From Albidovulum marisflavi (GTDB lineage Bacteria; Pseudomonadota; Alphaproteobacteria; Rhodobacterales; Rhodobacteraceae): a DNA stretch of 64,000 nt. The stretch covers positions 248,001 to 312,000 of the forward strand of contig NZ_JAOWKY010000003.1 of NCBI RefSeq assembly GCF_025751435.1, written 5' to 3'. Below are positions 45,927 through 55,108 of this stretch, in pieces; the first letter of the stretch is position 1; each line of letters begins with the position of its first letter. Under the pieces are notes generated by a model, which was given only the letters and a program-made list of their open reading frames with translations, was not told the DNA's origin and searched no databases. The position numbers were made by a program, and so were the translations under genes.

Positions 45927-46919
45927 CTATTCGACGATCTCCGCGATCTGTATCAGGTTCACCGGCGGATAGAGGCCGATCTGCTTGGCCATCGACAGGT
46001 TGATGGTCACTGCAAACTCGGACATCCGCGCGACAGGCAGGTCGCCCGCTCGTGCGCCGTCGAAGAGGATCGCCGCGGCCTGCCGTCCGGCGAGGCGCCC
46101 GACCTCGTAATAGCTTGCCGCTACGGACAGGAGGGCGTTCCCCTCGCGCGCGGCTTCTTCATAGGGGCTGATCAGGGGAAGCTTCGCATCGCGAACCGCC
46201 GCGCCAAGAATTGCGCTGTTCGCCTGCAGGAAGGAAGAGCTTCCCACATACAGGAAGTCGGCCCCCGCCTGCGCGACCTCGCGCACCTTGGGAGAGATAT
46301 CCTCCACCGAAGGTTGCCCTGCCTGGGTCAGCGGAAGGGCCAAGGCCACAAGTTCGAACCCCTCGGTCTTGGAAAGTTCCTGCAGTTCCTGATACTTGAG
46401 AACCGAGTTCGGCTCATTTTCGTTGTAGATCAGTCCCAGTGTGCCAAAGCCCGGAAGGTAGCTGCGGATGGTCTGGATCGTGACGGTCTCGGGCATGCGG
46501 TTGTAGGTCCCGGTCAGGTTCGGCCGGCCCGTGTCGTCGAGCGATTCCACAAGTCCGGATCCGACCGGGTCCGCGACGATCATGAACACCTGCGGGATGT
46601 CGTGATTGAACGCCGGATCTTCCAGTTGCGTGAGGTCGCCGGCAATTGCCTTGGTCACGCTCGTCCCCCAGCTGACGATCAGATCTGCCTCGCTGGCGCG
46701 CGCCTCGCCCAGCAGTCGCGGCAGCACGGCCTTGTCCTGCCCGGCGTCGCGGACGGTCAGCCGCACGTCCTGCCCAAGGCTGGCCATGTGGTCCTTGAAG
46801 CCCTGGCAGGCATCCTCGCAACCGCGCCAGGTGGCGATCATGACGTCCAGGCCCTGGGCCCGGGCGACCGTTGACCCGCTGGCCACAACGGCCAGCGTGC
46901 ACAGCAGGTACTTCAGCAT
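45927..46919 (-). CDS. ABC-type substrate-binding protein (PF04392 type), solo
   Basis: A 330-residue periplasmic protein with signal peptide (cleaved near ARAQ, about 22). It has the two-lobed peptide-/amino-acid-like binding protein layout of PF04392: CEDACQGFKDHM, LIVSWGTSVTKAI, VFMIVADPVGSGLVES, LGLIYNENEPNSV and the hinge FLYVGSSSF. There are no ABC permease or ATPase genes nearby. It overlaps the MFS/sensor gene upstream by seven bases, which suggests the ligand is passed to or sensed by that protein. Confidence 0.85.
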   Translation of the reverse strand: MLKYLLCTLAVVASGSTVARAQGLDVMIATWRGCEDACQGFKDHMASLGQDVRLTVRDAGQDKAVLPRLLGEARASEADLIVSWGTSVTKAIAGDLTQLEDPAFNHDIPQVFMIVADPVGSGLVESLDDTGRPNLTGTYNRMPETVTIQTIRSYLPGFGTLGLIYNENEPNSVLKYQELQELSKTEGFELVALALPLTQAGQPSVEDISPKVREVAQAGADFLYVGSSSFLQANSAILGAAVRDAKLPLISPYEEAAREGNALLSVAASYYEVGRLAGRQAAAILFDGARAGDLPVARMSEFAVTINLSMAKQIGLYPPVNLIQIAEIVE

Positions 46920-49672
46920 GGATGCCCTCTCCGCGCTCTCGAAGCCACTGACGCTTCGGATATCACGAACAGCACGGCGCCCGCCATAGCGGCCAACCCT
47001 AGCGCGGTCGAAATCGTCGAATGATAGCCCAGTTGGCCAAGAGCGGCGGCGATCGACAGGCCCAAGATCGCGCCCAGACGTTCAAAGAGGCGAAGCAAGG
47101 CAATCGGGCGTGACGACGCGCCGCTCAGTCCGAGGGTGAGCGCGTAGATGGGCGAGCGCAGGAGCGTGTGACCGATACCGACCAGCAGCACCGCGCACGC
47201 CGCGATCCAGACACCGCCAAGAAAGGGCAGGGCCACCAGCGTCAGCCCCGAAAGCACGGCGCCGACCACGGCCGAGACGCCGCTGCCGTGTCCGCCTCGG
47301 TCTCCGGTTCCCATCATCGGGCCCAGAATGATCGCGGCAAGATAGTAGAGCATGACCACGCGCGCGACATCCGCCGACCTGAGCCCCTGCGCGTCAAGCG
47401 CCAGCGGCATGTAATACCAGATGAAGGCCGCCGTCACCGCGCTGAGCGGCATGGCAAGGCCGACAACCAGCGCGGCGAACCGGCGCATGTCCACGGGCGT
47501 GGCCTCTTCGACGCGCTCGGCGGCGACGGTGTCGCTGGGGGCGCCCGCCGGCCCAATCATCCACAGACGACAGGCCAGGCCGGAAGCAAGGATGAAGACC
47601 GCGCCCAACATGATCGCAGAGGGAAATCCCAGCCGGCTTGCCAATACACCCCCGATGACCGATCCGCAGAAGGTGCCGCCGATGATAACGCCGATGAAGC
47701 CGCTCATCGTCCTGGCGCGAGGCGCCGCAGGGTCGACCCGAAGCCCGTATTCCTGGCAGGCCACGGTCACGAGCGCGTAGCACGCCGCGACCAGGCCGCG
47801 CGCAAGGGCGATCTGCGTGACGCTTCCGGCCATGGCCATCCAGACCAGTGCGGCCATGGCCACGGGAACCGAGGCAAGGAAAAGCCGCGCTGCGCCGTAT
47901 CGCCTGCTGATCGCTCCGGCAAAGGGTGACAGGGCTGCGACGGCCAGAAGGTAGATGACCATGGGCGCCGCTGCGGCGACCTCTGCCGTCAGCCAAACCG
48001 GGCGCGTCGCGGCCGAGGCGTAGACCGGCAGAAATGATGCCGTGATCTCGGACCCGAGTGCGAACAGGAAGAGTGGTAGCCGTATGTCGGCCCTGTCAGA
48101 CATCTCGACAAGCTTCGGCGAAGCCGGGGGCTGATCATTGCCAAGCGCTCGCCGCCGCTTGGCGATGTCGAGCGCGTAGGAGTTGAACCGGGCCGCCAGC
48201 CTGCGGAAGGCGACCGGCCCCTGTTCGCGCATGACGTGGTTGAATTGCCCTTTGCGCTGCTCTGCGAGCATCTGTATCAGCTGCGCATGCGGTTTCCATA
48301 CGGTCGCGCTCGCGATGGCGATGGCGAGTTCGACACCGATCAGCAACATCGCGATCGCCAGGATCGACACGTCCAGGACGACGTCGCGCAGCCGGGTCTG
48401 AACGAAGCGCTGGCTGCCCTCGATCCGGATCGTGCCGACGACCTGGCTCCCGGCAAGCACGGGCATTTCGACGGTCGATGCGCGAACGCCAACGGCGTGC
48501 CCGAACGAAGATGGGATGACCTCATCCCCAGTGTCCTCCCTCCTGGCCTCCGCGACCCGCTCGCCGCCGCCCGATATGAGGGATATCGCGGACACTTCGT
48601 CAAAGTTTTCGAGAATGCCTTCGAAGTGGGGCGACAGCCCACCAAGCGCGGACATCGGGATGCCAAGCTCCAGCGTGCGCTGCATCTCGGCTCGGACAAG
48701 GCTGCCGATCAGCGTTGCGCGGCTTTCCAGTTCTGGCTCGATGGCACGGTCGAATGCCAGAACGACGAGGGTGGAAAACACCAGAAGCGAGCTTGAGACG
48801 ACCGCAAGCATCGCAAGCACGATGCGTCGGCGCAGCGCCTGGATTTGCGCCGGCGGCGCCATCGGTTGGTCGTCGGGTGTCGGTGTTTGCGTCCGTGCCG
48901 GCGTACCTGCGCTGCCCTCGATCTCTAAAGCGTATCGCCGTTCAACTTCGCCTATCAGCGCGGAAAGAGGGCGGGCCGAAGCCGAAGGCCTTGACGCTTC
49001 GCCGGTGCTGGCCGAGATCCGCGACAGCCAGCTTTCACGCTCGAACCGCTGGATCTGCTCTTCCACTTCGTCATAGGCGGTGGTTGCCCGCGCAAGGGCG
49101 CGGCGCAGCACGATCCATATCGCTGGCGCGAGCACCATGGTGAAGGCCAGACCGGCCAGCAGAAGTTGGCCGACCATCGCCCAGGATTGCGCCTGGCTTT
49201 GCCGACCGGAATAGGTGATCGCCACCCCGCCGGCCACGCGCCCCGAGGCGTCAAAGAGTCGGACGCCAGAATAGAAACCGTCGGTGGTGTCTCCGGACCA
49301 GGTCGCGCTTGCGTCGTCGCCCAACCCGAAAGGGCCACCCAGAAGCGCAGGCTCCCGGTCGGTCGACGTCGTGGAGGCGACGAGCGAGCCATCTGCCGCG
49401 AACAGATAGGCGCCTTCGATGGCGGGATCGAACTGGCGCGCAAGTTCAAGCAATGCCGCCGTGTTGCGAACGGAGGATACGGGAAGTCCGATCTGGGTGG
49501 CAGCCTTGAACGGGTCCGCAGTCCGGTTCGCCAGCACCGCAATTCTTTCGCGCTCCAGCTCGAATCGGACCTGATTGAATTGCAGCACCGCCAAGGCGAT
49601 GAAGGCGAAAAGCGAGGACGCCGCGACGATGAAGATCGTCGGAAAGATCCGTCGGAACATCAGCAAGGGCAC
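46913..49672 (-). CDS. MFS transporter fused to two periplasmic sensor modules
   Basis: A 919-residue inner-membrane fusion. A first helix (about 10-32), a periplasmic domain (about 33-165; GAYLFAADGSLVAS) and a second helix (168-190) are followed by a cytoplasmic linker, a second helix-periplasm-helix unit (283-309, about 310-430 with EVSAISLISGGGERV, 433-458) and a HAMP-like/linker stretch, then a 12-helix MFS domain (about 530-905; PFAGAISRRYGAARLF, GFIGVIIGGTFCGSVIGG). The Cache-like repeats resemble sensor kinases but no kinase is present. The GTG start follows GGGAGGACA. Overlaps the binding-protein gene. Confidence 0.85.
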   Translation of the reverse strand: MPLLMFRRIFPTIFIVAASSLFAFIALAVLQFNQVRFELERERIAVLANRTADPFKAATQIGLPVSSVRNTAALLELARQFDPAIEGAYLFAADGSLVASTTSTDREPALLGGPFGLGDDASATWSGDTTDGFYSGVRLFDASGRVAGGVAITYSGRQSQAQSWAMVGQLLLAGLAFTMVLAPAIWIVLRRALARATTAYDEVEEQIQRFERESWLSRISASTGEASRPSASARPLSALIGEVERRYALEIEGSAGTPARTQTPTPDDQPMAPPAQIQALRRRIVLAMLAVVSSSLLVFSTLVVLAFDRAIEPELESRATLIGSLVRAEMQRTLELGIPMSALGGLSPHFEGILENFDEVSAISLISGGGERVAEARREDTGDEVIPSSFGHAVGVRASTVEMPVLAGSQVVGTIRIEGSQRFVQTRLRDVVLDVSILAIAMLLIGVELAIAIASATVWKPHAQLIQMLAEQRKGQFNHVMREQGPVAFRRLAARFNSYALDIAKRRRALGNDQPPASPKLVEMSDRADIRLPLFLFALGSEITASFLPVYASAATRPVWLTAEVAAAAPMVIYLLAVAALSPFAGAISRRYGAARLFLASVPVAMAALVWMAMAGSVTQIALARGLVAACYALVTVACQEYGLRVDPAAPRARTMSGFIGVIIGGTFCGSVIGGVLASRLGFPSAIMLGAVFILASGLACRLWMIGPAGAPSDTVAAERVEEATPVDMRRFAALVVGLAMPLSAVTAAFIWYYMPLALDAQGLRSADVARVVMLYYLAAIILGPMMGTGDRGGHGSGVSAVVGAVLSGLTLVALPFLGGVWIAACAVLLVGIGHTLLRSPIYALTLGLSGASSRPIALLRLFERLGAILGLSIAAALGQLGYHSTISTALGLAAMAGAVLFVISEASVASRARRGHPC

Positions 49673-49806: not shown

Positions 49807-50322
49807 CTAGCCGCGGACCCGGCGGACTTCCTGGCCGAAGCGATGCAGGAAGTCTTCCTGTTCCGGGCTTTCGACCCAGCGGGAGTTGCGCCGTCGCGCC
49901 TTGGTCAAGGCCTCCGTCGGGTCAAAGCCGCGCCAGATCAGCTGCGCGACCAGTGCCGTTCCCGTGCGCCCCTTGCCGGCATGGCAATGGTGTACGACCG
50001 CCTGTCCCGCTTCGATCCGCCTGTCCACCTCGCGGCAAATCAACGCTGCCTGCGCCATGTCCGGGGGCATCCGGTCCGGGATCGGGACATGAAGCGACTC
50101 CATTCCGTGGGCCGAGACGGCGTCGGCGTCGGGTTGCCATTCCTCCGTAAGCGACACCAGAAGGCGCGTTCCTACCCTTGCAAGCGCCGCAAGGTCGCCG
50201 TCCAGCGATGCGGAAAGACCCGGACGCGCCGTGCCGCCAAGCAGGCCCGGCACAAGCCAGACGAATCCCATCGGGCCGAAATAGTCGGACACCACCTGAA
50301 GGGGGCTAATATCCTCAAGCAC
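49807..50322 (-). CDS. Protein tyrosine / dual-specificity phosphatase-like protein
   Basis: A 171-residue cysteine-dependent phosphatase. The active-site P-loop HHCHAGKGRTG has Cys113 and Arg119, and the general acid Asp83 is in PIPDRMPPD. The early PGLLGGTARPG matches the substrate-entry region of DSP-type enzymes. The start is GTG at 50322 with a purine-rich AGGGGG upstream. A related but cysteine-free domain forms the C-terminus of the ABC protein encoded at 53975-55108. Confidence 0.85.
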   Translation of the reverse strand: MLEDISPLQVVSDYFGPMGFVWLVPGLLGGTARPGLSASLDGDLAALARVGTRLLVSLTEEWQPDADAVSAHGMESLHVPIPDRMPPDMAQAALICREVDRRIEAGQAVVHHCHAGKGRTGTALVAQLIWRGFDPTEALTKARRRNSRWVESPEQEDFLHRFGQEVRRVRG

Positions 50323-50388
50323 GGTGATCCGGCCCCCTGCCGCTGTTTCGCATTGGCCGAAGCCGTTCCGTGCCCAATGCCCGTCGCG

Positions 50389-51960
50389 TCATGCGGCCAA
50401 TCCACCCGAGGAATTGGATCGGCAGCGGTCGCAGAAGATTTCCCCCGTCCGCAGGTGATGTCGGACCGTCTCTCCGGCCGCGACCTCGTTCTGGCAGCCG
50501 TCACAGAGCGTGCCGAGTGTCATGACCTCGTCAACGAAGGCCGGCTTCGTCACCTCCTTGCCGTCGATCCACTGACCGCGCATGGATGACTTCACGATCT
50601 CGCGCCGGAACATCTCGTTCAACGCCGCCCAGCGGTTCATCAGGTGCTGCGGCAGGCCGTGCCGCGCGGCCACCGAGAAGAAAAGCCGCTCCCGGTAGTC
50701 GAACAGCTCGTCCGAGATGATCATCCAATGATGAGAGTTGAAGGGCCTTTCCCCGAAGTACCGGCGCTGGCCGGTGAACAGGTCTGCCATGAAGGAATAC
50801 TGCTTTTCCACGAGCCGCGCCTTGGTGACCTTGCGGAAAAACGGCTCCAGCCGCGGGTCGGCGAAGACCAGCGTGTAGAAGTCCTCAAGGATCGCGGTCA
50901 GCTTGCTGCCGCTGTCCAGCGCGGCCCACATTTCGCTGTCCGCTTCAACGCCGCTGATCTTTTCCGAATCGCGCGGCCGATAGGGCGCCGGGCTTTCGAA
51001 CGGGTCGGAGAACAGATCCTCCAACGCCGCGCCATGGCGCAGCGCCGCGATGCGGCCGGTCTCGACCATGTCCGGGGCGCCGCAGAGGTAGACCAGGTGC
51101 CCGCCAAGATCGGCCTCGGGGCCGATCGCGTTCCGTGCGACATCGCTGATCTCGGCGTCTGCCACCATGTAGTCGACGCTGAAGGTGGTGAAACGTGCCG
51201 CCATGTCATCCAGCCTTTCGCGAAGGTAGTGGTCCTCGGGGCGCCGGGCACCGTGAACCAACCGGATGGGTGCGCGGTGTCCGCGGGTCAGCGCGTCCTG
51301 TGCCACGGCTGCCAGAGTTCCCGCGCCGCAACCGCTTGCGATCAGCAAGAGCGGGCTGTCCGGCTGATCCCGGTAGTGGCAATGACCCGCAGGGCCGACA
51401 AAGTCGATCGTCGCGCCGACATCCAGCTGGTTGACCAGCCAGTCGCTGACGGCGCCCCCCTGATAATGGCGAATGTGAAGTTCAAGGTAGTAGTCCTCAG
51501 GGCAGCTCGCGATGGAGTAGCTTCGCATCTGCGTGCCGCTGCGCCGGATCGTTATGAACTGACCCGGACGCCAATCGAGGGCCTGATGCGTCTCAAGAAC
51601 GACCTTGTAGATGTTTGTACCCAGGCGAACTCTTTCCACGATGTCCGCCTGCGAAACCGACCTTGCCGGATCCGGCATGCGGGCCTCAACCGCGTGGGGA
51701 TGGCGCATCGTGCAAGGCAGGAAGAAGTTCTGGTCCCGGAGGTGCTTGGGAAGGGGCGAACGCGCTTCGGGACCCGGATCGCCCGATACTGCCTCCATCA
51801 TGCAGGATCGGCAGGTTCCCTTGCGGCACGAGAAGACGACATTCGCGCCCCCCGCAAGCATCGCCTCAAGCCCCGACTGGCCCGGCGCCACATCGTAGCG
51901 TTTGCCTTCGAAAGCAATCCAGCTATCGCCAACGATCTGTTTAGGGTCTGATCCGTTCAT
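50389..51960 (-). CDS. Ferredoxin-flavin reductase-globin-zinc ribbon fusion
   Basis: A 523-residue multi-domain protein. The N-terminal [2Fe-2S] domain uses Cys45, Cys50, Cys53 and Cys83 (SCRKGTCRSC). A ferredoxin-NAD(P)H reductase module follows: FAD motif RSYS (146-149), GCGAGTLAAV (210-219) and YLCGAPDMVE (291-300). Residues about 345-458 are globin-like (KLTAILEDFYTLVFADPRLE, SHHWMIISDELFDYRERLF), with candidate proximal His410 or His411. The C-terminus has paired cysteines Cys486, 489, 510 and 513 (CDGCQ, CDRC), a zinc-ribbon shape. GGAGGATGCA precedes the ATG. Order is the reverse of Hmp flavohemoglobin. An NO- or oxygen-related reductase is likely; not proven. Confidence 0.82.
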   Translation of the reverse strand: MNGSDPKQIVGDSWIAFEGKRYDVAPGQSGLEAMLAGGANVVFSCRKGTCRSCMMEAVSGDPGPEARSPLPKHLRDQNFFLPCTMRHPHAVEARMPDPARSVSQADIVERVRLGTNIYKVVLETHQALDWRPGQFITIRRSGTQMRSYSIASCPEDYYLELHIRHYQGGAVSDWLVNQLDVGATIDFVGPAGHCHYRDQPDSPLLLIASGCGAGTLAAVAQDALTRGHRAPIRLVHGARRPEDHYLRERLDDMAARFTTFSVDYMVADAEISDVARNAIGPEADLGGHLVYLCGAPDMVETGRIAALRHGAALEDLFSDPFESPAPYRPRDSEKISGVEADSEMWAALDSGSKLTAILEDFYTLVFADPRLEPFFRKVTKARLVEKQYSFMADLFTGQRRYFGERPFNSHHWMIISDELFDYRERLFFSVAARHGLPQHLMNRWAALNEMFRREIVKSSMRGQWIDGKEVTKPAFVDEVMTLGTLCDGCQNEVAAGETVRHHLRTGEIFCDRCRSNSSGGLAA

Positions 51961-52592
51961 TGCATCCTCCGGGGGCGGGCGAAATGCCCGGCTGACGGTC
52001 GAGACCGTCCTTCTCGCACAATCGAGTCGTCCGATGTTCACGGCCGACTTCGCGGCAGGCCAACGCGCGCAAGCAATGAGCGCATTGCGGCGATCCGGAG
52101 GCGTCGGGGCGTCGAAATCATGGCGACCCGGTGATTTCTGGGGCGGAACCCGCAAAGTGCGATCTTGTCGCACCCAGCGAGAATGTTGCGACAGCATTTG
52201 GCCTCAATCCTGCCGCATTGGATGGTCAGTTATCCGGCCCAAGGAACGGGCGAGTCGAAACCCGCAGTCCTTGGGCAGCACGGAAAGGTTATATCGAGCG
52301 TTTCATGGATTGTTGAATTTAAGATCAATCCAGATGCGCGTTTCCATTGACCCAATCGTCGCCGCCAAGATTTTAACTGTGCTTACCGAGTGAATGTCTA
52401 CGAATGAAAGGTTCGGACAGATAATTAGCGCGAAGTATCATCTTGTGGGTTTCCCCATGAGAAAAACAAGAAAGCTAATATCTAGGAAACGCTGAACGTC
52501 GGTGCGCCGGATGATTTTTTTTATACGAGTTTCCGGTGCAATCAAACACCAGCACCGTCAGTATATCTGACCAACCAGTATTAGGATTCCCA
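51961..52592. promoter_or_regulatory. Divergent intergenic region with inverted repeats
   Basis: No convincing gene lies here. GTGCGA-TCTTG-TCGCAC is a perfect inverted repeat at 52157-52173, and TGCGACA recurs at 52187-52193, so three related half-sites are present. The last 200 bases before the Roadblock gene are unusually A/T-rich and should hold its promoter. The region separates the reductase-globin gene from the Roadblock gene and is a natural place for a shared regulator. Confidence 0.45.
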
Positions 52593-52997
52593 ATGTCTCT
52601 CGACAAAGCACTCGCCGAAGCAATGAACACGGTCCCGGAATGCGTTGCCGGCGCCTATATCGATATCGAGTCCGGCCTTCTGCTCAGCGTCAAGACGCTC
52701 GACTCCCATCCGCAGGCGGTTCTGGACATGGTCGCCGCGGCGACCGCCGACATGTTCCAGGGGCCGAATGTTTCGCAGATTGAAAAGCATTTCAAGGCGT
52801 CGCGCGGTCAGAAGGATGCGACGTCGCATTACTTCAACGAATTCCTCGTCTTCAGTGACAATCTCATTCACGTCTTCCTGCGCACCAAGAAGTTCCCCGA
52901 TCATGTCGTGTCCTTCGTGTGCCGCAAGAGCGCGAACATCGGCATGGTGCTTGCGAAAAGCCGCATGGCGATCGACGGCCTGTCGAGTGCCGTCTGA
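52593..52997 (+). CDS. Roadblock/LC7-like domain protein
   Basis: A 134-residue single-domain protein. AEAMNTVPECVAGAYIDIES at the start matches the Roadblock/LC7 fold, as does the following GLLLSVKTLDSHPQAVLDMV region and the LIHVFLRTK strand in the middle. Such proteins usually partner a small GTPase as MglB-type regulators, but none is encoded here. AGGATTCCCA before the ATG at 52593 is a good site; the frame extends 19 codons upstream to a GTG. First gene of a three-gene plus-strand set. Confidence 0.68.
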   Translation: MSLDKALAEAMNTVPECVAGAYIDIESGLLLSVKTLDSHPQAVLDMVAAATADMFQGPNVSQIEKHFKASRGQKDATSHYFNEFLVFSDNLIHVFLRTKKFPDHVVSFVCRKSANIGMVLAKSRMAIDGLSSAV

Positions 52998-53026
52998 GGC
53001 TTCACCGGAGTAAGTTCAACAATGAC

Positions 53027-53050
53027 GGGTGCCTTATGAAAAAGGCACCC
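53027..53050 (+). terminator. Hairpin between Roadblock gene and downstream gene
   Basis: GGGTGCCTT (53027-53035) pairs perfectly with AAGGCACCC (53042-53050) across a six-base loop. No T run follows. It may attenuate read-through into the next two genes or stabilise the Roadblock message. Confidence 0.65.
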
Positions 53051-53075
53051 GCACATCGTGGGGCAAGAAGCGCAA

Positions 53076-53966
53076 ATGTCTTTGCGAAGCCTATTTCTGG
53101 ATCGTGTAAGGCGGGACCGAAGCGTCAAGCCGAAAAGCAGTGAAACACTGGCGGCGGATCTGTCTCCGCTTGATCGCCACGCCACTATTGCCAAGCTGAT
53201 AGCGGACTCCGATAGCCCGCGTGAAATCCGGCTTTCCGGTCAGACGTGCGAGGCCATTCTGATTTCCTTCGGGCAGCGGCTTCTGCGTGCGGAAATAAGA
53301 GCGCCCGGATCTCAGGGTGAAGTATTCGATTTCGGCATGAAGGCGGATGCGCCTGAATTGGAAGGGTTGATCGCGCGGCTGAACGCATCTCTTTCCGAGT
53401 TTTGCGCGCGCAGCGGGGAATTGTCGGTTGATATCCTGACGGCGGACAAGCCCCAGGACGCGGCTGCGGGCCTGCGCCATGGGCTTGTGACATACGACGA
53501 CGAGGCCGCGATCGAAAGCCTCTGGGAGACGACGCGTCCCCAGCAGGAAGACGATGCCGCCCGCGCCCGCGAACCCGGCAAGGGGCCGGAGGCCGCCTCC
53601 GATGTGCTGACACTTCAGTCGCCGCTGCGGCCGGAAGGTGCCGCATCGCTGAGGCCGTTCGAGTTCCTTGATGGCTGCCGCGGCTTCGCGGACGAGGTCA
53701 CGTTCTTTTCCGAGCACGGCGAAGGCGCCTATGCGGCGAGAAGAACTGACGACATTGCGGGCGACCGCCGGGACCTGCCCGCCCTTGCTGACTGGTATGA
53801 CCGGGTTTCGGAACACCTTGGCGCGGACATTTTCGTTGTCGCCATTCCCGCGCGTCGCGACGATCCTGCGACGGCCTTCGCTCTGAACGGCAGTCATGGC
53901 GCGGGCATACGTTTCCGGCGCGTGAACCTGGGGCAGGTGGCCCGTGTGATTGCCGGTTCAGACTGA
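53076..53966 (+). CDS. Unrecognised soluble protein in Roadblock/ABC set
   Basis: A 296-residue protein without membrane segments or signal. MSLRSLFLDRVRRD opens a basic start; two halves follow. The first (about 30-145) has SPLDRHATIAKLIADSD, ILISFGQRLLRAEIRA and LEGLIARLNASLSEF; the linker 150-195 is acidic and disordered-looking; the second (about 200-296) has PFEFLDGCRGFADEVTF, LPALADWYDRVSEHLGADIF and FRRVNLGQVARVI. I recognise no family. The ATG at 53076 is preceded by AAGAAG; a GTG at 53058 is in frame. The stop is eight bases before the ABC gene start. Confidence 0.7.
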   Translation: MSLRSLFLDRVRRDRSVKPKSSETLAADLSPLDRHATIAKLIADSDSPREIRLSGQTCEAILISFGQRLLRAEIRAPGSQGEVFDFGMKADAPELEGLIARLNASLSEFCARSGELSVDILTADKPQDAAAGLRHGLVTYDDEAAIESLWETTRPQQEDDAARAREPGKGPEAASDVLTLQSPLRPEGAASLRPFEFLDGCRGFADEVTFFSEHGEGAYAARRTDDIAGDRRDLPALADWYDRVSEHLGADIFVVAIPARRDDPATAFALNGSHGAGIRFRRVNLGQVARVIAGSD

Positions 53967-53974
53967 TCAGGCGC

Positions 53975-55108
53975 ATGTCCGGCTGTGCCCTGTCGATCCG
54001 CAACCTGTCCGTCCACGCCAACGGGCGGCCGGTCCTCCTTGGCATCGATTTCGACCTGTCCAGCCACGGAATGACCGCACTGATGGGTCCGATGGGCAGC
54101 GGCAAATCCGCCTTTCTGAAGTGCATATGCTCATCCGACAGCGATCTGCTTGAGGTCCGCTGGGATGAGGCGGTGTATCGGGGCGCGCGGCTCGAACGGG
54201 ATCGCCGCCCCGTGCTCATCCGCCAGAAGCCGCGGCAGGATGCGCGCAAAGCGAAGGCGTCGGGCCGCCTGCTTGATGAACGGATTGAGGAGATTTCGCA
54301 GGCCTGCGCTGGCAATCGGGATGTCCTGTGCATCGATGAGCCGACCGCCGGCCTGAACGCCCGGGACGGCGCCGGCATGATGCGGTTCCTTCAAGCACAT
54401 GCACAGGCGCGACCAATCCTGTTGGTGTCGCACAATTCAAAGGAGGTGCGCGGCTTTTGCGACCGGGTGGCTCTGCTTGGGGGCGGGCGCATGATTGCGC
54501 ACTGCCCGAAAGCCGAATTCTTTGCCCCCGGTGCCGGACGTCACGTCGAATGGTTCATAAGAACCGGCGGGCTAGACCTGCCCGGCGCGGGCACACCCCG
54601 TCACATGCTTTCGTCCGAACACCGGCCCCTGCCGCCCGAATTCGATCGCACCGCCGTCCGACCCGGTGTCGATCGGGCATGGATCATCGAACATGCGCTT
54701 GAACTTAGGTGGCCTGTGGCGGAAGGCGGGGGCAACCCACGGCCAAACCCTGACGATGGCCACATGATCGTGTCTGTCGGGCGCGATGCCACCACGCTGG
54801 CAGGCCCGGGGGGCAGGCGTGCCGTACAGCTCTGGGACCACGATCACACGCGCCCTGATCTGGACATGCCCGCGATCTTGAACATCTGCCGTCTTGTCGA
54901 GGAGGCGATATCCGAGGGGCTTCTGGTGATGATCGAGCCAAGGGAAAACGTCGTCGGCACGGCTGCGATCTTGGGTTCATTCATGGTCATGCGCGGGGCA
55001 GCGCCCGAAGACGCGGTTCGCCTTGCATCCGCGAAACTTCCCGAGCTTCATTTCGGCATGCGGATGGAACAGCTCTTTTGGGATATCGATACCGGCTTGA
55101 CGATCTGA
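53975..55108 (+). CDS. ABC ATPase fused to phosphatase-like domain without catalytic Cys
   Basis: A 377-residue protein. The N-terminal ABC domain has Walker A GPMGSGKS (38-45), a Q-loop-like RQKPRQ (83-88), Walker B VLCIDEPTAGL (117-127) and H-loop VSHNS (His153), but the helical part is short and the LSGGQ signature is degenerate (ASGRLLDERIEEIS). Residues about 215-365 resemble a dual-specificity phosphatase: HMIVSVG, NICRLVEEAISEG and GTAAILGSFMVMRG correspond to the usual strand and P-loop helices, but the P-loop reads VMIEPRENVVGT without Cys. No membrane partner is nearby. Regulatory rather than transport function is plausible. Confidence 0.78.
   Translation: MSGCALSIRNLSVHANGRPVLLGIDFDLSSHGMTALMGPMGSGKSAFLKCICSSDSDLLEVRWDEAVYRGARLERDRRPVLIRQKPRQDARKAKASGRLLDERIEEISQACAGNRDVLCIDEPTAGLNARDGAGMMRFLQAHAQARPILLVSHNSKEVRGFCDRVALLGGGRMIAHCPKAEFFAPGAGRHVEWFIRTGGLDLPGAGTPRHMLSSEHRPLPPEFDRTAVRPGVDRAWIIEHALELRWPVAEGGGNPRPNPDDGHMIVSVGRDATTLAGPGGRRAVQLWDHDHTRPDLDMPAILNICRLVEEAISEGLLVMIEPRENVVGTAAILGSFMVMRGAAPEDAVRLASAKLPELHFGMRMEQLFWDIDTGLTI

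Follow-up and report, generated by a model that had tools for sequence, protein, structure and literature searches.

A Roadblock protein beside an ATPase joined to a phosphatase domain: a conserved gene cluster with a candidate signalling role in Albidovulum marisflavi and its relatives

Whether five neighbouring genes for a phosphatase, a ferredoxin-reductase-globin enzyme, a Roadblock-type protein, a further protein (protein U) and an ATPase form one functional unit is the question raised by a locus of Albidovulum marisflavi (Rhodobacterales), situated at positions 49,807 to 55,108 of a 64,000-nucleotide stretch of contig NZ_JAOWKY010000003.1 (assembly GCF_025751435.1, positions 248,001 to 312,000; the window). 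A first-pass annotation had proposed that these genes work together. Our comparison demonstrates that they belong to a real, conserved cluster in Pseudomonadota and Myxococcota, the core of which is a divergent Roadblock protein beside an ATP-binding cassette (ABC)-type ATPase joined to a phosphatase of the tyrosine/dual-specificity type; this core is often accompanied by the globin enzyme and by GTPases, which are dynamin-like in Rhodobacterales and Ras-like in other groups. No description of the cluster was found in the open-access literature searched. The window locus may belong to a conserved signalling cluster as its branch in Rhodobacterales; in this cluster the Roadblock protein would scaffold a nucleoside triphosphatase (NTPase)/phosphatase switch with haem/redox input, a reading in which our confidence is evenly balanced.

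Genome contigs were scanned with a 10-row alignment of the Roadblock protein; of the 259 relatives obtained, the best 80 loci were examined by six-frame profile searches (cut-offs for the counts: 250 bits or more for the ABC protein, E 1e-4 for the other families). The ABC protein was present in 68 of these 80 loci: 52 possessed a fused active phosphatase (active-type), 16 a phosphatase-like domain without the catalytic cysteine (dead-type), and none both. In all active-type loci the ABC gene is located on the Roadblock strand, with the matched domains lying within 150 nt of each other in 45/52. The globin enzyme was detected in 32/80 loci (19 active-type, 11 dead-type, two without ABC protein), some of the matches being weak or cut (L072, L104). 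As the homologues sit together in many genomes, the proposed joint function is partly supported: the linkage is plain, the mechanism is one that we infer. All five gene types co-occur in nine of the 80 loci, all alphaproteobacterial (among them L072 with its weak globin match of 53 bits), but the widely distributed core comprises only the Roadblock and ABC-phosphatase genes. The dead-type loci are mostly of Rhodobacterales type (14/16), the remaining two originating from an unplaced alphaproteobacterium (L075) and a Novosphingobium metagenome bin (L088); the active-type loci belong to Myxococcota or to beta- and gammaproteobacteria, apart from a few records without placement. The fused two-gene core is carried by Comamonas testosteroni (L096, L103, L107, L130). 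No full ABC gene was in view in 12/80 loci (L068, L071, L073, L085, L089, L090, L092, L110, L116, L122, L132, L135), of which L089, L110 and L116 contain ABC pieces cut by contig ends.

Within the order, Roadblock matches at E 1e-3 or better were present in 41 of 390 genomes, 24 of them from a single genus (g22); PTP (protein tyrosine phosphatase family) and ABC genes lie near the Roadblock gene in G057, G174 and G356, and the globin gene lies near it in G057 and G174. An ABC query found three in 292 order genomes; it under-counts because six candidates per genome were scored, and the Roadblock query was therefore used. The globin tail matched in 11/380 order genomes, three times strongly (E below 1e-60), namely in the window genome (G000), G057 and G174, all of which possess Roadblock, ABC and PTP genes; the other eight matches score 34 bits or less. 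Five genomes contain a Roadblock protein of 48% identity or more (G000, G057, G174, G356 and G072, the last with no ABC gene in the 11.9 kb examined), and the probability of a chance overlap between these and the strong globin genomes is 1.1e-6, provided that both genome samples agree and with the always included window genome counted. In the phylum sample, Roadblock matches at or below 1e-10 were present in 35 of 398 genomes, in five of them strong and each time with the ABC protein adjoining. The globin query matched 67/398 phylum genomes at 1e-5, and the only two strong matches (over 200 bits) fall among these five. Weaker Roadblock relatives, mostly of family f38, in many cases adjoin a canonical Roadblock gene, some in tandem (L161-L185; 1.8-3.4 kb each); globin matches occur within seven of these 25 loci, presumably in a protein of about 300 residues with two globin-like parts, and some contain what we take to be a metallophosphoesterase-like protein.

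The Roadblock assignment depends on the predicted structure: by sequence, the protein gave no Pfam Robl_LC7 match (best model Skp1, E 0.25) and no solved Roadblock chain by profile. The AlphaFold model, built from a 62-row alignment (A3; 62 of 83 Roadblock references), has a mean predicted local distance difference test (pLDDT) value of 90.3, and Foldseek retrieved 3kye (E 1.7e-7) as well as MglB and Ragulator chains (probability 1.00, template modelling score about 0.6-0.7). According to the model, the predicted fold is that of the Roadblock/LC7 family, which bears out the first-pass identification.

The ATPase retains the Walker A, Walker B and H-loop residues, which are invariant in a four-row alignment (A2). 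The two types of ABC protein differ in the stretch between the Walker motifs: the spacing is 87 residues in the window protein, 78-89 in 15 of 17 dead-type proteins (L072 and L078 escaped the pattern) and 122-140 in 48 of 53 active-type proteins (five escaped it), the dead-type stretch thus being shorter by about 35-60 residues. No LSGGQ motif was present in the examined stretches before Walker B of either type. The tail of the window ATPase had been described as PTP-like without catalytic Cys, and an hhalign comparison of five such tails with four standalone PTPs agrees (96.5%, E 8.6e-10). In the window protein and four relatives the catalytic Cys and Arg columns hold other residues, so by its sequence the domain is classed as a pseudophosphatase. 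This assignment was made by family because the single PTP profile reaches only seven of 17 dead-type tails, the window tail not among them. The free phosphatase, annotated from the outset as active with Cys113, indeed carries the HCx5R signature within its full motif (see Table 1) and matches the Pfam families Tc-R-P (1.1e-19) and PTP-SAK (2.4e-17); its PDB relatives include DUSP23 (2img, 4.9e-17), and it is the sole match at E 0.001 within its own genome.

The presence of two phosphatase domains in the window locus is best read as a split, one copy being active and free and the other decayed on the ATPase. By profile, an active PTP occurs elsewhere in 14/16 dead-type loci versus 0/52 active-fusion loci (Fisher 9.7e-13, to be taken as a rough guide because the rows are related). 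The exceptions are a contig of 10 kb (L069) and L079, in which GTPase, PTP and Roadblock parts share one open frame; since L079 holds the PTP within this fusion, 15/16 dead-type loci keep an active phosphatase. A PTP-Roadblock open frame was also found in L087, one of the 14. In a 90-row Roadblock tree, 54 active-type rows are located behind one branch (support 99/98); a very long branch at another point of the tree carries the second Roadblock matches of the active loci L112 and L125. The label changes number two for active and three for dead. With a short alignment and an unrooted tree, fusion first and split later is the more economical direction, not a proven one.

The earlier statement that the Roadblock protein has no GTPase partner holds for the window locus but not for the family: dynamin-like proteins were found in 15/16 dead-type and 0/52 active-type loci, Ras-like GTPases in 12/52 active-type and 0/16 dead-type loci (12/80 overall), and in consequence the family is not GTPase-free. 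The GTPases of relatives contain Pfam Dynamin_N, and the PADLOC models LeoA and LeoBC match the dynamin-like protein of L040 at 3.7e-16 and 7.9e-16. In some beta- and gammaproteobacterial loci a Ras-like GTPase and a canonical Robl_LC7 protein stand beside the core. In the ten g22 loci that were read, the Roadblock gene belongs to a longer operon that also encodes smaller GTPases, dynamin-like proteins and a U-like protein; behind these comes what we take to be a Ser/Thr kinase-like gene, joined in most of the loci by presumed FHA-like, PP2C-like and LysM-containing ones. On contig C8 of the window genome (L057 1-19900) lies a second set, in which a distant paralogue of the Roadblock protein (20% identical, E 8e-6) is accompanied by a U-like protein, one dynamin-like protein and two GTPases, and also by presumed kinase-like, FHA-like, PP2C-like and LysM genes; related operons are present in loci L042-L056. 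Three of the eight Dynamin_N matches in this genome are on C8; of the other five, three look to us like MnmE, Der and HflX, the remainder being L063 and L065.

The ferredoxin-reductase-globin protein had been correctly recognized: Fer2, FAD_binding_6, NAD_binding_1 and Bac_globin domains lie in a single chain, and the globin part matches truncated haemoglobins in the PDB. In a seven-row alignment (A5), four C-terminal cysteines in CxxC pairs (7/7 rows), which may bind zinc, and an HHW motif of the globin part (7/7) are invariant, and His and Tyr positions of this part are conserved. We take the proximal His to be among the HHW residues, haem binding being predicted. The NCBIfam Hmp model scores far below its cut-off (76.4 versus 432 bits), and the globin is C-terminal and of Bac_globin type. 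A GFA-family protein (PF04828) is encoded in 7/80 Roadblock loci (L040:18287-18883 (= L082), L076, L078, L079, L084, L087, L094), five of which also carry the globin enzyme.

The coordinates of the window locus are compiled in Table 1. All five open frames are situated where the first-pass annotation had placed them, but three (50389-52197(-), 52536-52997(+) and 53058-53966(+)) open ahead of their likely starts: the globin enzyme frame is over-long, with Met80 (first base at nt 51960) as the likely start according to conservation and a GGAGG motif; conservation of the Roadblock protein in the alignment begins at nt 52593; and protein U probably starts at 53076. The closest relative of this locus, in Defluviimonas (L066:3396-6003), repeats its arrangement, with PTP and globin genes on one strand and Roadblock, U and ABC genes on the opposite one.

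Table 1. Features of the locus in the window, with the evidence for each assignment.
Feature	Position (nt)	Strand	Basis
Active dual-specificity-type protein phosphatase (PTP)	49807..50322	-	HCHAGKGRTG, Cys113; Pfam Tc-R-P, PTP-SAK
2Fe-2S / FAD-NAD reductase / truncated globin / 4-Cys protein	50389..51960	-	Pfam domains; open frame to 52197
Divergent AT-rich intergenic region	51961..52592	.	Repeat analysis on 51964-52592
Divergent Roadblock/LC7 protein, 134 aa (predicted fold)	52593..52997	+	AlphaFold model, Foldseek, 62-row alignment; frame opens 52536
Protein U	53076..53966	+	No Pfam/NCBIfam match; low-confidence two-domain prediction; frame opens 53058
ABC-type ATPase with C-terminal putative pseudophosphatase (about aa 205-377)	53975..55108	+	Pfam ABC_tran; hhalign to PTP

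Protein U was modelled from alignment A4 (15 of 16 references, the cut L068 dropped) as two domains of low confidence (pLDDT 76.6, predicted template modelling score 0.49); a weak match to 9jue (probability 0.54) hints at a Roadblock-like C-terminal half. Its relatives are present in 15/80 Roadblock loci, 11/16 dead-type and 0/52 active-type, and no match was obtained in the plasmid collection. The intergenic region is AT-rich as had been noted, with 43.7% GC at 52300-52560 versus 65.0% for the window (only 5 of 6374 same-size windows are as low). The inverted repeats, which had been taken as part of a regulatory region, are at chance level: the single exact 9-nt pair is reached by 15.5% of 200 shuffles, and the repeats were rejected as regulatory sites. 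One weak sigma-70-like match was found in the gap (0.4 expected). Outside the locus, a 919-aa frame at 46913-49672, the C-terminal part of which is a major facilitator superfamily (MFS) transporter by Pfam, adjoins an ABC_sub_bind protein at 45927-46919. The candidacy of these MFS-type and substrate-binding genes (45927-49672) as parts of the module was unsupported: the matches were limited to the window's own copy among the loci fetched at that stage, and four related genomes gave a single weak, partial match to the pair. The flanks of relatives are not syntenic with the window in an empty-site comparison.

How such a cluster might operate can be outlined from these components. Roadblock proteins are implicated in the regulation of NTPases, MglB acting as the GTPase-activating protein of MglA (PMC4316618, PMC4476040). 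In the proposed mechanism, a Roadblock dimer would act as a platform and sense the nucleotide state of an NTPase, a part played by the ABC-type ATPase and, in many relatives, also by a GTPase; this platform would set the phosphatase to act on a phosphorylated target, and the output would be dephosphorylation. The haem enzyme might feed in the gas or redox state by supplying or consuming the signal, or might itself be the output. In the window locus the dead phosphatase domain may depend on ATP to hold either the target or the free phosphatase, and GTPases, if used, would come from the second operon on C8. That control by the Roadblock protein is exerted on an ABC-type ATPase and the phosphatase attached to it, instead of or besides a GTPase, that the haem-redox enzyme serves as gas sensor, and that the Rhodobacterales split the phosphatase and recruited dynamin-like GTPases, is a tentative proposal held at less than even confidence. 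A precedent for the globin-Roadblock link is HGbRL of Methylacidiphilum, a fusion with a structural proposal for signal relay; it differs as a direct fusion with N-terminal globin (PMC4476040), whereas in the window locus the globin, of truncated type, is part of a multidomain redox protein encoded apart from the Roadblock protein, and ABC and PTP genes are present in addition. ABC transporter ATPases share the Walker and H-loop residues, but the window protein differs from them by the missing LSGGQ, the shortened Walker A-B stretch (dead type) and the attached phosphatase domain. Nor was a permease gene observed in the locus: the Pfam scan, which covered seven proteins of the window, matched no ABC permease model.

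Several observations weigh against a signalling cluster of this composition. The globin enzyme is missing from 48/80 loci, some of them cut by contig ends; in G356 the 20 kb examined contain the Roadblock, ABC and PTP genes but no globin gene, three of the five strong-Roadblock phylum genomes gave no globin match, and in G538 the globin is on a different contig from the Roadblock gene. L071, L085, L092 and L135 contain no full ABC gene despite 10 kb on each side, for which contig ends are no explanation. The window locus lacks a GTPase, the model of protein U has no confident Foldseek match, and the PTP-Roadblock fusions of L079 and L087 derive from metagenome-assembled records that assembly error could affect. 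Absent from so many loci, the globin enzyme is probably not the only output, which likewise speaks against a detoxification locus, in which the reductase-globin protein would be a nitric oxide (NO) dioxygenase or O2-handling output and the Roadblock, ABC and phosphatase proteins would do no more than control its activity or cell placement. This explanation, which we regard as unlikely, would fit a single protein that unites globin, 2Fe-2S and reductase domains, the conserved His and Tyr positions and the divergent orientation of the globin and PTP genes in both the window and L066. Flavohaemoglobin Hmp, an NO dioxygenase, also joins an FAD/NAD reductase and a globin in one chain, but in the window enzyme the order of the domains is reversed, 2Fe-2S and 4-Cys parts are added and the globin is of Bac_globin type.

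The dynamin-like GTPase pairs of relatives could alternatively be the effectors of a membrane-remodelling or anti-phage module, with the Roadblock, ABC and phosphatase proteins as its control unit and the window as a reduced version. Dynamin_N in these GTPases, the LeoABC matches of L040 and the patchy distribution are compatible with this, and so are the genes adjoining the L066 copy, presumably integrase-like and transposase-like as judged from sequence, which hint at mobility. LeoABC-like dynamins are found in Rhodobacterales relatives but not in the window locus, which has no GTPase, and in none of the 52 active-type loci; of the window proteins only the ATPase matches PADLOC (mad3 1.2e-10, mad8 4.6e-5), and the neighbours of the window locus are, as we take them to be, housekeeping genes, so that we consider this explanation quite improbable. 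A polarity or signalling system of MglA/MglB or conservon type to which further genes were added would account for the Roadblock fold occurring together with NTPases, as in MglA/MglB and the Streptomyces conservons (Cvn), and for the Ras-like GTPase and canonical Robl_LC7 protein of some relatives. It is very unlikely in our view: the constant partner here is the ABC ATPase-phosphatase, Ras-like GTPases are restricted to the minority of active-type loci given above, the window locus has no small GTPase, and the seven window proteins scanned match neither a histidine-kinase nor a DUF742 model. Chance neighbours without common function would explain why some loci lack the globin enzyme or PTP and why the repeats are not above chance; the repeated linkage in Pseudomonadota and Myxococcota and the fusions leave this hardly credible.

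If the proposed Roadblock-scaffolded NTPase/phosphatase switch is correct, it would bear on how the family is understood. Roadblock proteins are known as regulators of GTPases, and a widespread family with an ABC-type phosphatase as constant partner would widen this rule. The related loci, which keep both states, would offer a testable case of phosphatase-to-pseudophosphatase evolution, and the globin enzyme may mark a way in which gas sensing by haem could lead to dephosphorylation. As C. testosteroni is culturable, the fused core would be testable in that organism.

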